Translations under genes and position numbers: made by a program
Assembly: GCF_005047595.1 (NCBI RefSeq)
Contig: NZ_SUPL01000006.1
Location: forward strand, 239,653-303,652
Direction: 5' to 3'
DNA: 64,000 nucleotides
From: Pontimicrobium aquaticum
Lineage (GTDB): Bacteria; Bacteroidota; Bacteroidia; Flavobacteriales; Flavobacteriaceae
Shown: in pieces, positions 13,218-24,805 of the stretch
Layout of the letters: the number at the start of each line of letters is the position of its first letter
Position numbering within the stretch: position 1 is the first letter of the stretch
Notes under the pieces: generated by a model
Told to the model about the DNA's origin: nothing
What the model saw: only the letters and a program-made list of their open reading frames with translations
The model's database searches: none

Positions 13218-13360
13218 TGTCAATTCGAGTGAATTTTACGATTTAAAAAGAGTAAAATTAGTATCGAGAATCAAATTTTGTGGTATAAAACCTGTTCTCG
13301 ATACAATTTTCTACTTATTTCGACTGCGCTCAATATCATAGAAAATCACTCGAACTGACA
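13218..13360. repeat. Nested palindromic element, full copy (E0)
   Basis: A complete 143-base copy of the family. Outer inverted repeats are TGTCAATTCGAGTGA and TCACTCGAACTGACA (one mismatch). The left arm hairpin is AATTTTAC (13232-13239)/GTAAAATT (13252-13259), the central inverted repeat GTATCGAGA (13261-13269)/TCTCGATAC (13296-13304), and the right arm hairpin ATTTTCTA (13306-13313)/TAGAAAAT (13339-13346). It fills the gap between the kinase and its response regulator, so a read-through transcript would carry a large folded structure. Confidence 0.85.
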
Positions 13361-16142: not shown

Positions 16143-18359
16143 TTATTTCATTAATTTAATAGCTGCATCAATATTAGCGGTAAAATCCTTTAAAACTTCA
16201 CTTAAAATAGTTATTTGCTCGGTTACCTCATCAAAATTCTTTTGTTCGATAGCTTCCCTAACGCCTGGCAAAGTCTTTACACCATATCCTGTGTAAAATC
16301 CTGGTGCATAAATATGATGTTTGTACCAAGAGCGACGCGGCAAACCATGGTCACGTATCAACTTGCTTTCCATGCTTTTTAGAACTTTATTAAGCTTATT
16401 GGTATTTGCTGAATTACTGATTCCTTTCTTGGATGCCATTGCAAACTCAGAAGCCTTATTCTTCAAGTTTTTTAAGGCGTTTTCAATTGGTGCAAAATTG
16501 AAATAAGGCACAGGCGTTTTTGGTCCAGGTGTTTTAAAATTATCCTTTGGGTTGGCAACTAAATCATAGACACCACTTTCAATAAGCTTATTATGACTAT
16601 CTGCTTCCTTACGTAACTTGTCAGCCAACTTAGTAACCTCATCAACATATCCAGATACAATTTTTGTAAAATGTTTGAACTCAAATGGCAATACTTCAGC
16701 ATTTGCCAAACGTAAACTTGTACGTCCAGCGACTTTAGCCAAAGTCACTCCATATTGAAAGGTTGGGTCTTTAAAACGCTTATACAATTTATACGAATCG
16801 TACATGGTGTGATATTCTCCACCTGAGCTTTCGCCACCAAATCCCATATTAAAAGAAGAAATTCCTAAGTGTTGAAAGAATGGTGAGTAATCTGATCCTG
16901 AACCTAAAGCAGATAACTTATAATGCGACCAACTTGGTTGTCCGTTAGCAATATTTCTAGCATTACGTCTATCGAACACAGACACACCTTTTTGAGGATC
17001 GTTTACCACATGCGTTATTTGGTCAAAGAATTTCTCTAAAGTGTGCGAGCCTCCAGCTCCTAAAAATCCAGCACCAGTTCCGTCGGTATTAATATACGCA
17101 ACCACTTTTTCTCTTAATTCGTCTGCATGCGTCTCCACCCATTCGGTTGAGCCTATCAATCCAGGTTCTTCTGCTCCCCAAGCACAATACATTAGCGTTC
17201 GTTTTGGTGTGTGACCTTGCTTCGCTAAAATACTCACTGCTCTAGCCTCTTCCATCATGGTTACTAAACCGCTAATTGGGTCGTTAGCACCATGAACCCA
17301 AGCATCGTGGTGATTTCCTCTAATCACCCATTCGTCTGGTAATTCACTTCCTTTTAAGGTTGCAATCACATTATAAGCTGGTTGTAAATCCCAATTAAAT
17401 TCTAGTTTCAAACGTACTTTTGCTGGCCCAGGACCTATATGATAGGTTATTGGTAAAGCACCTCTCCAATTGGCAGGAACCACAGGACCACCAATCGCTT
17501 TTAATAATGGTAAGGCATCATTATACGATATTGGTAACACAGGAATTTTTGTTAAAGAGGTTGCTTCGCTTATTTTTAAACGTTTAGCACCATCTGTTGA
17601 ACCATATCCAGGTGTTAATGGGTCTCCAGGCGCATAAGGTAAATCCATTACGGCTCCACGTTGAACGCCATATTCATTTTTAAATGGACCTTTAGGATAC
17701 ACATCACCTTGATAATAACCATCATCTCTTGGGTCGGAATAAATAATACATCCAATAGCACCTTTTTCAGCTGCAAGTTTTGGTTTAATTCCTCGCCATG
17801 AGCCTGCATATTTGGCTATGACAATTTTTCCTTCTACCGAAATGCCTCTTTTTTCTAATTCTTCATAATCGGCAGGAATACCATAGTTTACAAATACTAA
17901 TTCTGAAGTCACATCACCATCAATAGAAAATGCATTATAACCTGGAAGCGCTTCTTTTATTTGCTTAGACGATTCGTCGCCTTTTATAGCTGGCTCGATG
18001 AGTTTTGCTTTATACTTAGTTGGAGCAGTCATCTCCAACAATCTTAATTTTGGTGTTGGAAACAGCACATCAAATTTTTCTATACGAACCTCGTAACCCC
18101 ATTCTTTAAATTTTGCAGCCACATAATCGACGACTTTTTTATCATAAGGAGATCCTACATGATGTGGTCGAGCCGTCATATACTTCATCCATTCATCAAG
18201 ATTCGTTGCCTTAAGTAACTTATCGTAATCTTGTTCTAATTGTAATTGTGATTTTGAAGCTTCATCACTAAAGCCCATAATTGGCGATTGAGCCATCATT
18301 GCAGGCATTGACAAACAAAGAGCGATTGCCAATAAAGCAAGAGATTGTAAACGTTTCAT
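16143..18359 (-). CDS. Exported M28 family metallopeptidase, glutamate carboxypeptidase II-like
   Basis: 738 residues with signal peptide (1-22, ending AMMAQ). Layout as in glutamate carboxypeptidase II: a protease-associated domain (about 120-300) inserted in the N-terminal part, a Zn-peptidase core with GNHHDAWVHGANDPISG (His/Asp about 349-360), WGAEEPGLIGS (catalytic Glu pair about 396), the Asp of YINTDGTGAG (about 424) and the His of GEYHTMYDSY (about 516), and a C-terminal transferrin-receptor-like dimerisation domain. All five metal ligands are present, so it is probably an active periplasmic or surface exopeptidase releasing acidic residues from peptides. Confidence 0.92.
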   Translation of the reverse strand: MKRLQSLALLAIALCLSMPAMMAQSPIMGFSDEASKSQLQLEQDYDKLLKATNLDEWMKYMTARPHHVGSPYDKKVVDYVAAKFKEWGYEVRIEKFDVLFPTPKLRLLEMTAPTKYKAKLIEPAIKGDESSKQIKEALPGYNAFSIDGDVTSELVFVNYGIPADYEELEKRGISVEGKIVIAKYAGSWRGIKPKLAAEKGAIGCIIYSDPRDDGYYQGDVYPKGPFKNEYGVQRGAVMDLPYAPGDPLTPGYGSTDGAKRLKISEATSLTKIPVLPISYNDALPLLKAIGGPVVPANWRGALPITYHIGPGPAKVRLKLEFNWDLQPAYNVIATLKGSELPDEWVIRGNHHDAWVHGANDPISGLVTMMEEARAVSILAKQGHTPKRTLMYCAWGAEEPGLIGSTEWVETHADELREKVVAYINTDGTGAGFLGAGGSHTLEKFFDQITHVVNDPQKGVSVFDRRNARNIANGQPSWSHYKLSALGSGSDYSPFFQHLGISSFNMGFGGESSGGEYHTMYDSYKLYKRFKDPTFQYGVTLAKVAGRTSLRLANAEVLPFEFKHFTKIVSGYVDEVTKLADKLRKEADSHNKLIESGVYDLVANPKDNFKTPGPKTPVPYFNFAPIENALKNLKNKASEFAMASKKGISNSANTNKLNKVLKSMESKLIRDHGLPRRSWYKHHIYAPGFYTGYGVKTLPGVREAIEQKNFDEVTEQITILSEVLKDFTANIDAAIKLMK

Positions 18360-18436
18360 AAAATAAAAATTGGTTGATTATTCTCAAATATAGCGAATAA
18401 TAACGCTAGAGAATACCGAAACTTATTAACAGCTTA

Positions 18437-18540
18437 TGTACATCGCGAGTGAAACCGAGCTTGTGAGGTTTTATATCAAGATATGTTTAATAAAGTTCTC
18501 GATACAATTCACTCATACTTCGTGAATCACTCGAACTGAC
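18437..18540. repeat. Nested palindromic element, degraded copy (E1)
   Basis: The left arm has the AAACC/GGTTT hairpin type and the right arm the hairpin ATTCAC/GTGAAT just before CACTCGAACTGAC. The central repeat is decayed on the left (ATATCAAGA for GTATCGAGA) but intact on the right (TCTCGATAC). It is separated by 13 bases from E2. The start of the 406-base gap (18360-18765) before it shows no gene. Confidence 0.75.
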
Positions 18541-18553
18541 TAACATATCCCTT

Positions 18554-18652
18554 TGTCACATCGAGTGAATTTGAGCAAAGCGAAAATTTGTATCGAGATG
18601 CAGTCATACATTGTTCTCGATACTTCGGCTAAGGCTTCAACTCGAACTGACA
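18554..18652. repeat. Nested palindromic element, full short copy (E2)
   Basis: A 99-base copy from TGTCACATCGAGTG to CTCGAACTGACA. The left arm is of the GAATTTGAGC...GAAAATTT type, the central repeat GTATCGAGA/TCTCGATAC has a 16-base loop, and the right arm hairpin is GGCT/GGCTT-like around CTTCGGCTAAGGCTTCAA. It is followed by a 53-base spacer (18653-18705) that recurs in similar form at 19222-19269, indicating a local tandem duplication. Confidence 0.85.
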
Positions 18653-18705
18653 CTCTTTTTGTATTTAATAGAAATGATATTAATGCAAATACAACCATAA
18701 CTTAA

Positions 18706-19112
18706 TGTCACATCGAGTAAAACCGAACTTGTGAGGTTTTGTATCGAGATGTTTATATTTAAAATATGAAAGTTTACTATGTATACATTTTAGAATGCGC
18801 AGATAGCACTTATTATACAGGAATCACATCGAACCTCACAAAGCGATTTGAGGAACATACAACAGGGAAACATAGAGATAGTTACACGTATAGTCGGCGT
18901 CCTTTAAATTTAGTCTTTTATACAGAATTCACTAATGTTGAAATCGCTATTACTACAGAAAAACAAATTAAGAAATGGTCAAAAGCCAAAAAGAAAGCAC
19001 TCATAGATGGTGAGTATGATAAACTAATAAATTTAGCAAAGAAGAGGTTTAATAAATAGTTCTCGATACTATTTTATGTCGTTAACACTTCATAAAATCA
19101 CTCGAACTGACA
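18706..19112 (+). mobile_element. Palindromic element carrying a GIY-YIG nuclease gene in its central loop (E3)
   Basis: The left half (18706-18750: TGTCACATCGAGT, AAACC/GGTTT hairpin, GTATCGAGA at 18741-18749) and the right half (19061-19112: TCTCGATAC, hairpin ATTTTATG/CATAAAAT, then CACTCGAACTGACA) are those of the short copies. The central loop is 311 bases instead of about 16-26 and consists almost wholly of the nuclease gene: ATG begins 16 bases after the left central repeat and TAG ends one base before the right one. This looks like the autonomous form, with flanking copies E2, E4 and E5 as non-autonomous derivatives. The mobility is inferred from structure; no target duplication was established. 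Confidence 0.7.
18766..19059 (+). CDS. Single-domain GIY-YIG endonuclease
   Basis: 97 residues, one GIY-YIG domain as in the UvrC-like short family (COG2827 type). The GIY-equivalent strand YYVYILEC opens the protein; YTGI is the YIG-equivalent; the catalytic Arg lies in LTKRFEEH and the metal-binding Glu in ITTEKQIKKWSKAKK near residue 65-70. All expected active-site residues seem present. There is no extra DNA-binding domain. The gene is framed exactly by the two halves of a palindromic element, so the encoded enzyme may nick or cut the folded element and move it. This is an inference from position and from the parallel with REP-associated transposases. Confidence 0.88.
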   Translation: MKVYYVYILECADSTYYTGITSNLTKRFEEHTTGKHRDSYTYSRRPLNLVFYTEFTNVEIAITTEKQIKKWSKAKKKALIDGEYDKLINLAKKRFNK

Positions 19113-19124
19113 GGCACTTCCCAT

Positions 19125-19221
19125 TGTCACATCGAGTGAAACCGAACTTGTGAGGTTTTGTATCGAGATGCTGTTATACATTGTTCTCGATACTTCGGCT
19201 AAAGTCTCAACTCGAACTGAC
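19125..19221. repeat. Nested palindromic element, full short copy (E4)
   Basis: A 97-base copy, 12 bases after E3. The left arm has the AAACC/GGTTT hairpin with the GAACTTGTGA loop; the central repeat GTATCGAGA/TCTCGATAC has a 16-base loop; the right arm is CTTCGGCTAAAGTCTCAA. The left arm matches that of E3, while the central and right parts match E2. Confidence 0.85.
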
Positions 19222-19269
19222 TGTCTTTTTATATTTAATAGAAATGGTATTAATACAAATATAACTTAA

Positions 19270-19371
19270 TGTCACATCGAGTGAATTTGAGCAAAGCGAA
19301 AATTTGTATCGAGATGCTTGTTAACTTTATTCTCGATACTAAATTGCTACGCAATTTCACTCGAACTGACA
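19270..19371. repeat. Nested palindromic element, full short copy (E5)
   Basis: A 102-base copy. The left arm is of the GAATTTGAGC...GAAAATTT type (as E2), the central repeat GTATCGAGA (19306-19314)/TCTCGATAC (19331-19339) has a 16-base loop, and the right arm is a perfect hairpin AAATTGC (19341-19347)/GCAATTT (19351-19357). Together with E4, the 48-base spacer and the E3 right half it fills the 367-base gap between the nuclease and NYN genes; no other gene is seen there. Confidence 0.85.
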
Positions 19372-19426
19372 GGCATATTTCTTATTGCGTCAATTGGTTT
19401 TGGGAAACACAGTAAAAAAGTGAGAG

Positions 19427-20194
19427 CTATTTTTTTGCGCGTGAACGTCTTGCTGGCTTTGGTTTGTTTTTTACATACACCAGTTTTGAGCGTCCTTTAT
19501 AATCTTCACGTCTTTCTATTTCGAACTTACCAATAGATTTAATAAGTGGTGTCAGTTTTTCAAAACCAAAGTTTCTGGAATCAAAATTAGGTTGCTTTTT
19601 TTGCAACAAACTCCCAACATCACCTAAAAATGCCCAACCATCGTCGTCTGCCAAATCAGAAATGGTGGACGATATGATGTGAATGTCTTTAGCTGTTATT
19701 TTATCATAATCATCTTTAGAATCCTCAGAAGCGTCACCAGATGATGACTCACCTTCAGATTTTTGATGTTTTAATATTTCTATATAGATAAACTTATCAC
19801 AAGCAACAATAAAAGGATTAGGTGTTTTCTTTTCGCCTATACCATATACCTTCATTCCTGCTTCACGCAATCGCGTGGCCAGTCTCGTAAAATCACTGTC
19901 ACTAGAGACTAAACAAAATCCGTTGACTTTCTCAGAATACAAAATATCCATCGCATCAATAATCATTGCAGAGTCTGTGGCGTTTTTTCCTGTGGTATAA
20001 CCGTATTGTTGTATAGGTGTAATGGCATTTTCCAAGAGCATATTTTTCCATTTGGATAAATGTGGCTTAGTAAAATCGCCATAAATACGTTTAATAGTTG
20101 GATTACCGTATTTAGCAATTTCTTCCATCATTTCTTTCACATAAGCCGATGGAATGTTATCGCCATCAATAAGTACTGCTAATTTAATATCCAT
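19427..20194 (-). CDS. NYN domain protein with C-terminal LOTUS/OST-HTH domain
   Basis: 255 residues. The N-terminal NYN (PIN-like) nuclease domain, about 1-145, begins LAVLIDGDNIP and has further acidic residues in TDSAMIIDAMDIL and LVSSDSDFTRLATRLREAG. It belongs to the LabA/DUF88 group, which are predicted RNases. An acidic serine-rich linker (SEGESSSGDASEDSKDD) precedes a winged-helix OST-HTH/LOTUS domain (about 165-240) that probably binds RNA, and a basic tail ends RRSRAKK. It may act in RNA surveillance. It lies next to the palindrome cluster, but nothing shows a functional link. Confidence 0.88.
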   Translation of the reverse strand: MDIKLAVLIDGDNIPSAYVKEMMEEIAKYGNPTIKRIYGDFTKPHLSKWKNMLLENAITPIQQYGYTTGKNATDSAMIIDAMDILYSEKVNGFCLVSSDSDFTRLATRLREAGMKVYGIGEKKTPNPFIVACDKFIYIEILKHQKSEGESSSGDASEDSKDDYDKITAKDIHIISSTISDLADDDGWAFLGDVGSLLQKKQPNFDSRNFGFEKLTPLIKSIGKFEIERREDYKGRSKLVYVKNKPKPARRSRAKK

Positions 20195-24597: not shown

Positions 24598-24644
24598 AGG
24601 CTTGTTCTTGTTTATTTAAAATAATGTTTTTGGCATTATTTGCT

Positions 24645-24695
24645 TCTCGATACTATTTTATGTCGTTAGCACTCTATAAAATCACTCGAAGTGAC
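24645..24695. repeat. Right half of a nested palindromic element (E6R)
   Basis: TCTCGATAC followed by the hairpin ATTTTAT/ATAAAAT and CACTCGAAGTGAC. It is nearly the same as the right half that follows the GIY-YIG gene at 19061-19112, including the loop TGTCGTTA, but there is no left half or nuclease gene beside it. It may be the remnant of a nuclease-bearing copy. Confidence 0.75.
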
Positions 24696-24707
24696 TTACT
24701 AACTAAC

Positions 24708-24805
24708 TGTCACATCGAGTGGAACCGAACTTGAGAGGTTTTGTATCGAGATGCATGTAAACAAGGTTCTCGATACTTCGGCTAAAGCCTCAACTCGAAC
24801 TGACA
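24708..24805. repeat. Nested palindromic element, full short copy (E7)
   Basis: A 98-base copy, 12 bases after E6R: TGTCACATCGAGTG, GGAACC...AGAGGTTTT arm, GTATCGAGA/TCTCGATAC with a 17-base loop, GGCTAAAGCC right arm and CTCGAACTGACA. The E6R-E7 pair reproduces the E3 right half-E4 pair, with the same 12-base spacing. Confidence 0.85.

Follow-up and report, generated by a model that had tools for sequence, protein, structure and literature searches.

The gene-bearing element and its short copies

A compact gene flanked by two palindromic repeat arms lies at positions 18706 to 19112 of the window, the whole 64,000-nucleotide stretch of Pontimicrobium aquaticum DNA analysed here. The gene encodes a small GIY-YIG nuclease, and several short, gene-free copies of the same repeat lie in the window, four of them in its immediate neighbourhood. 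The features are as follows, all on the forward strand.

13218..13360, +: short copy with a 26-base loop, at a site that is occupied in the sister genome G198 as well
18437..18541, +: short copy with a degenerate left end (TGTACATCGCGAGTG)
18554..18652, +: short copy with a 16-base loop
18706..18749, +: left arm of the gene-bearing copy, comprising a TGTC tag, TCGAGTR, a variable hairpin and TATCGAGA
18766..19059, +: GIY-YIG nuclease gene, 97 codons, a stand-alone domain of presumed COG2827 / Slx1-like type
19061..19112, +: right arm of the gene-bearing copy, comprising TCTCGATAC, a variable hairpin and CACTCGAACTGACA
19125..19222, +: short copy with a 16-base loop, its left arm near-identical to that of the gene-bearing copy
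19270..19371, +: short copy with a 16-base loop, folding as one long structure (z -6.2)
24708..24805, +: short copy with a 16-base loop, preceded by a lone right half at 24644-24696

The gene-bearing element is 407 bases long. Its left inner half, TATCGAGA, ends at 18749 and its right inner half, TCTCGATA, starts at 19061, leaving a gap of 311 bases that is occupied by the 97-codon gene; the ATG at 18766 lies 16 bases past the left half, and the TAG ends at 19059, one base ahead of TCTCGATAC. An earlier note on this DNA had placed the halves 311 bases apart around one intact GIY-YIG gene, with the ATG 16 bases after the left repeat and the TAG one base before the right, and these distances are exact to the base. 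Its loop lengths of 16-26 bases for the short copies also hold in the window, where four copies have loops of 16 bases and one has a loop of 26.

Each of the window's six intact copies consists of two arms placed head to head. With up to 2 mismatches allowed, the window contains CACTCGAACTGACA 13 times, versus 0.18 occurrences expected in shuffled sequence, and the composite pattern TATCGAGA-N10..40-TCTCGATA is found at 13 places genome-wide, the reversed control pattern at none. Three short copies fold better than their shuffles (z -3.4, -2.3 and -6.2); for the two arms of the gene-bearing copy, folded singly, the advantage over shuffles is only modest (z -1.7 and -2.3). The short loops were considered as possible deletion products of the gene loop, and some have their first bases in common with the leader of the gene (loci L060 and L061). 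Elsewhere in the genus, locus L181 (genome G202) carries a classical TGTCATTCCGTACTTGATACGGAATCCA ... TGGATTCCTGCTTTCGCAGGAATGACA dimer 3' of a peptidase gene, beside the window's repeat type.

The nuclease

The GIY-YIG reading frame is intact and matches Pfam PF01541 at 59.1 bits (cut-off 22.6; E 5.3e-16). Residues Y7, Y17, G19, R27, H31 and E65, the catalytic Tyr, Arg and Glu among them, are invariant in an alignment of 11. By sequence, the UPF0213 proteins 1ZG2 and 1YWL are the nuclease's only relatives of solved structure (the 97-amino-acid protein matches PDB 1zg2 with E 3e-13). We take the gene to belong to COG2827; neither NCBIfam nor PADLOC gives the nuclease a name. Among close relatives the nuclease is under purifying selection, with dN/dS of 0.04-0.09 in five of six pairs and saturation in the sixth (window versus L020).

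Derelict and extended forms of the gene also occur. Remnants with internal stops lie at G370:C17, G021:C20 and L133 (G170), and G370 and G021 retain 12 half-repeats each. At L132 (G109:C42) the GIY-YIG frame is joined through repeats (PELVDSV), in frame, to a helicase-like open frame of 999 codons; the repeats are seemingly inside the reading frame.

Nesting and co-occurrence in the Flavobacteriaceae

The arrangement was followed through 79 flavobacterial loci, drawn from the best 80 of 283 relatives, with 321 other open reading frames of at least 80 codons from the same 79 loci as controls. Genes were scored as nested if, within 100 bases and with at most 1 mismatch, the first motif upstream was the inner left half and the first downstream was the inner right half. 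By this definition 46 of the 79 homologues (best 80 of 283) are nested, versus 6 of the 321 control frames (Fisher p 4e-32, loci treated as independent). At 14 of these 79 best-scoring loci the outer ends face the gene, which thus lies between two elements (2/321 controls), and the remaining 19 of the 79 from the best 80 of 283 have a mixed arrangement. A downstream motif is present at every one of the 79 loci (best 80 of 283).

The earlier note had made its proposal depend on whether the two halves stand, as a rule, on either side of related GIY-YIG genes. They do: among the 79 loci from the best 80 of 283, 73 have a motif no more than 100 bases away in each direction, the 46 nested genes being counted above, versus 11 of 321 controls. 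The association of GIY-YIG gene and half-repeat is not due to chance. Spacing is also regular in the nested copies from the best 80 of 283, in which the inner left half mostly ends about 17 bases ahead of the ATG and the inner right half begins 0-5 bases past the stop in 35 of 46. Outward YGTCA tags stand on both sides of 39 of 78 genes (best 80 of 283, one of the 79 loci being dropped for a short flank) versus 7 of 328 controls. Within a locus, arms that enclose the gene are related to the remaining arms: in 34 of 44 loci they resemble these more closely than arms of a different locus drawn at random (p 6e-4). Genome G214 has at least 15 units arrayed in tandem, with two identical nested genes among them.

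Co-occurrence was tallied by hand in 199 Flavobacteriaceae genomes representing 199 genera, 80 of which contain the left half. With a close homologue defined as E up to 3.2e-33, a cut-off chosen after the table had been seen, 30 of the 31 genomes that have such a homologue contain the left half, versus 50 of 168 others (p 6e-13); three or more half-repeats are found in 27 of the 31 versus 30 of the 168. Genome G386 has 83 half-repeats and no close homologue. Since copies in genomes that lack a close gene are common, the repeats may outlive the gene, or other nucleases may serve them.

The arms as conserved hairpins

The arms vary greatly in sequence. The fetched loci yielded 355 different arm inserts; in the 140 diverged ones kept from these, the six bases following TCGAGTG and the six preceding a one-base linker are paired at 90.7% of positions. 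When the 5' and 3' parts of the arms are re-dealt, pairing drops to 56.3%, with a maximum of 60.1% in 500 shuffles; a slide of one base either way gives 55-57%, near its own re-paired background of 52-53%. The arm hairpins are maintained by covariation, the sequence being free and the structure conserved.

Outside the close family, folding differs from arm to arm: the Novosphingobium aromaticivorans arm folds well (z -4.5), the arm at L157 no better than shuffles (z 0.1), and the arm at L271 forms an 8 bp stem with a 5-base loop. By eye, the arms at L120, L121, L123, L157 and L153 seem to have a tandem G.A mismatch (GAG ... CGA) at an equal position in the stem.

Presence and absence at orthologous sites

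The window site differs among related genomes. It holds five copies in the window genome, one of them gene-bearing; in the sister species G199 and G200 the orthologous site is empty (flank 93% identical), and in G198 it holds two short copies and no gene. Empty sites or short copies at the orthologous locus were what the earlier note had proposed looking for, and both are found. The difference between species at this site is a five-copy cluster rather than one unit. Complete short copies occur in all six genomes of the genus (10, 13, 2, 4, 1 and 5, on the one strand counted), and a close gene occurs in only one of the six, the window's own (G201 is 86% complete); G198 has 13 complete short copies despite having no close gene left.

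Comparable differences are found at plasmid-collection loci. In Azospirillum lipoferum AZO_p3 (L262) the nuclease gene, with complete CGTC dimers on both sides, lies between sufB and sufC, which are 617 bases apart; in A. oryzae, A. ramasamyi and strain B510 (93-94% identical) the gene is absent and the spacing is 87-129 bases. The site on Novosphingobium plasmid pNL2 is without the gene in two relatives (83-84% identity over 58-62% of the stretch). Presence and absence at an orthologous site are thus seen against G199 and G200 and in the Azospirillum suf operon, with empty-site flanks too diverged to fix the junction and no readable target-site duplication.

Arm-flanked nuclease genes beyond the close family

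Short palindromic repeats with a similar outer tag were defined by Di Nocera et al. in 2013 as CGTC-tagged REPs. As described in the available parts of that paper, these are intergenic, have a hairpin arm with an outer tag (TGTC and CCTC being variants), form mostly head-to-head dimers and occur in five phyla, in species that include Azospirillum lipoferum, Novosphingobium aromaticivorans, Neisseria (dRS3) and the flavobacterium G. forsetii; a dedicated transposase was concluded to be apparently missing (PMC3733652).

A phylum-wide search of 198 Bacteroidota genomes gave a match in at least 123. From the matches listed, 69 loci were used (29 foreign loci and 40 hand-picked ones, chosen before their flanks had been seen) and were submitted to a motif-free test for inverted repeats in 150 bases on each side, 3 of the 69 being dropped for short flanks. 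Among these matches, 34 of 66 genes are surrounded by an inverted repeat, versus 7 of 98 control frames and 23 of 328 mismatched pairs. Because its two arms differ in their hairpins, the window copy falls below the threshold, so the test errs on the conservative side. Three further searches contributed 8 of 26, 14 of 36 and 1 of 9 records. Plasmid-collection loci have the inverted repeat in 14 of 23 cases, L272 and L273 being one site in two strains of one genus, versus 4 of 43 controls, those four sitting in three fetched loci; coverage of the Pseudomonadota consists of plasmid-collection records and one Escherichia coli chromosome. Photobacterium, Rhizobium K1/93, Sphingomonas paeninsulae, S. 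parapaucimobilis, Aeromonas (two arms in direct orientation), two Legionella, Cetobacterium and Acetoanaerobium fall below the inverted-repeat threshold.

Outward YGTCA tags on both sides are likewise enriched in the wider Bacteroidota set (17/66 versus 1/80, among the matches listed) and in the plasmid-collection loci (9/23 versus 3/38). Among the inverted-repeat-positive genes outside the close family, GTCA points outward in both arms of 26 of 48 (18/34 and 8/14) and is missing as a pair in the other 22. Quite different arm sequences flank the genes in other Bacteroidota and in Pseudomonadota. The gene is nested on pNL2 of Novosphingobium aromaticivorans (perfect pair CGTCGCCCCGTGCTTGACACGGGGCTTGG), in Rhizobium CIAT894 (CGTCATCCCAGGGCTTGACCCTGGGATCCA), in Shinella, Neorhizobium and Sphingobium, and in Methylobacterium (CCTC type), and the enclosing pairs are classical CGTC-REPs in Rhizobium, Shinella, Novosphingobium and Sphingobium. 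In Azospirillum, Sinorhizobium and Neisseria the gene lies between elements whose tags point toward it (e.g., the Neisseria relative L270, with dRS3-type arms on both sides), and in the cyanobacterium Planktothrix TGTCATTCTGAG repeats stand on both sides with no clean nesting. By eye, the Pseudomonadota arms at L265 and L267 have the stem, loop and tail of CGTC-REPs. Arm-flanked GIY-YIG genes thus reach far beyond the Flavobacteriaceae and onto the published CGTC-REP class.

The classical arm GTCATTCCCGCGNANGCGGGAATC occurs 13 times in G179 and 4 times in G089, both of which have such arms at the gene, as well as twice in G029 and once in G188; it is absent from G000, G099 and G134. At L123 (G099) and L157 (G134) dispersal of the arms as repeats was considered and rejected, since the tested arm pair has no match away from the gene at up to 1 mismatch. 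Two observations stand apart: an IS4 transposase gene adjoins the GIY-YIG gene and its CGTC arms at L265 (Rhizobium CIAT894), and at L217 (G322) a stretch with the nuclease gene is present in two copies, 97% identical over 553 bases, with another repeat type (GGTGTCTGAGTGGTTGCAAAGCAACTGTATCGAAGACACC).

A tree of 106 proteins, built from few alignment columns and leaving out rows with stops or short flanks, contains a supported clade of seven that includes E. coli YhbQ, a DNA damage response nuclease by RefSeq annotation. By the inverted-repeat test none of these seven has arms, versus 59 of the 99 proteins outside the clade (p 0.003). A single origin of the arm association was tried on this tree and rejected: the label needs 27 changes, at least 21 of them forced by supported branches, with few columns behind them. 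According to the available parts of the sources, one of the three COG2827 genes of Caulobacter crescentus has an SOS box (PMC1839093), and the bacterium is among the CGTC-REP species (PMC3733652).

A probable mobile element and the alternatives

The 407-base element is, in our judgement, probably the autonomous, gene-bearing form of a REP-type mobile repeat, whose nuclease would cut its own tagged hairpins and leave host repair to copy the element; its mobility is likely. The arms would become single-stranded during replication, transformation or repair and then fold, and the nuclease would recognise and nick its own tagged hairpins. RAYTs, the transposases of the GTAG-tagged REPs, are Y1 (HUH) enzymes with a covalent DNA intermediate, whereas GIY-YIG enzymes cut DNA by hydrolysis, with no covalent bond between enzyme and DNA. 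For that reason the nuclease, unlike RAYTs, should be unable to join strands itself, and on the most economical reading the break would be healed by host repair with another copy as template. Such repair copying could lengthen tandem arrays, occasionally seed new sites and, in the manner of homing endonucleases, convert short copies to gene-bearing ones. The 311-base loop may hinder folding at the apex of the gene-bearing copy and so protect that copy.

The main rival, which we consider unlikely, is a host-serving, repeat-specific single-strand nuclease of Ssn type that controls DNA uptake or clears folded DNA and does not spread the repeats, gene and repeat co-evolving as enzyme and substrate. 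The association, the tags and the hairpins fit this account equally well, and it draws further strength from the strong purifying selection, from the RefSeq name of YhbQ and from SsnA, which reportedly acts on a repeated single-stranded site and affects transformation. It accounts poorly, however, for the joint absence of gene and arms in G199, G200 and the three Azospirillum genomes, although G198 does have arms and no gene; twin genes within one array, and a stop codon that almost touches the right arm, likewise go beyond what a substrate relation requires.

Capture of a repair-type nuclease gene by recombination between clustered intergenic REP-like repeats, to which the enzyme would be inert, is considerably less probable still. 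A passenger of this kind would explain why some genes lie between complete copies and why many genomes have repeats and no close gene, but arm-flanked genes recur across several phyla with unrelated arm sequences, and other reading frames of the same repeat-rich loci are seldom flanked. That the hairpins merely form the terminator or leader of the gene, taken from a common repeat stock, is hardly credible: the right arm does begin 0-5 bases past the stop in most nested copies, and REPs are located at the 3' ends of genes (PMC3733652, available parts), but matching halves stand on both sides, the arms conserve structure and not sequence, a search of Rfam with window positions 18000-19600 returned no family match, and the arm pairs of G099 and G134 exist only at the gene.

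The mobile-element reading may extend to the whole CGTC/TGTC-tagged REP superfamily. We advance this generalisation tentatively, as a proposition just short of probable: stand-alone GIY-YIG nucleases would be the mobility enzymes of these repeats in several phyla, each gene lying between its own hairpins and its product cutting folded single strands with no need of a tyrosine transposase. The arm-flanked loci are in this sense a candidate answer to the missing CGTC-REP transposase. CGTC-type REPs (Neisseria dRS3, Rickettsia RPEs, and the alphaproteobacterial and Bacteroidota repeats) are a widespread class, and a gene family repeatedly nested in or flanked by them makes their spread directly testable. 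If true, the proposal would add a second, tyrosine-free solution to REP mobility over several phyla. It suggests that two unrelated enzymes, the Y1 transposase and the GIY-YIG nuclease, reached the same REP life style, and it would supply many single-strand or hairpin nucleases with a specificity readable from the arms beside the gene.

Comparison with known systems

Close prior art is the work on Ssn nucleases in Neisseria (Nature Communications, 2025), a nuclease type common to the window protein. SsnA of Neisseria meningitidis is said to cut a repeated sequence as a single strand, and the family is reportedly widespread, with differing specificities. To our knowledge that study offers no mobile-element reading, flavobacterial nesting or orthologous empty sites. 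Should it already connect the family with repeats on its flanks, the novelty here would still lie in the bearing on the CGTC-REP question, the nested element and the differences in presence between genomes. We found no link between GIY-YIG enzymes and REPs among the listed titles and abstracts of the open-licence PubMed Central literature.

Among nucleases, the Slx1-like / UPF0213 / YhbQ proteins (PDB 1ZG2 and 1YWL; PMC1564403, as far as its available parts go) have the same minimal stand-alone domain and differ in that the YhbQ-containing clade of seven lacks arms. Homing endonucleases of the GIY-YIG type resemble the present case in that the gene lies within the element its product is predicted to spread by cut-and-repair; here, however, there is no intron or intein, only the minimal domain is present, and the sites are dispersed rather than confined to one allele.

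The REPtron formed by GTAG-REPs and RAYTs has the same architecture, an enzyme gene between head-to-head palindromes together with many short non-autonomous copies. Its enzyme is a Y1 (HUH) transposase flanked by GTAG palindromes, whereas the window element has a hydrolytic GIY-YIG nuclease and a TGTC tag, and so lies outside the REP/RAYT definition. The CGTC-tagged REPs are nearer. The window arms start with TGTC, one of the outer tags of that class (CGTC, TGTC or CCTC), and have the head-to-head dimer layout that predominates in it. They depart from its 8-9 bp stem, 4-5 base loop and CCA-like tail, however, in having a longer composite stem, made of a 4 bp TCGA stem and a variable inner hairpin, and no CCA tail. 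The available parts of the CGTC-REP paper make no mention of GIY-YIG enzymes (PMC3733652); in the present data the GIY-YIG genes of A. lipoferum, N. aromaticivorans and Neisseria gonorrhoeae are all flanked by such arms.
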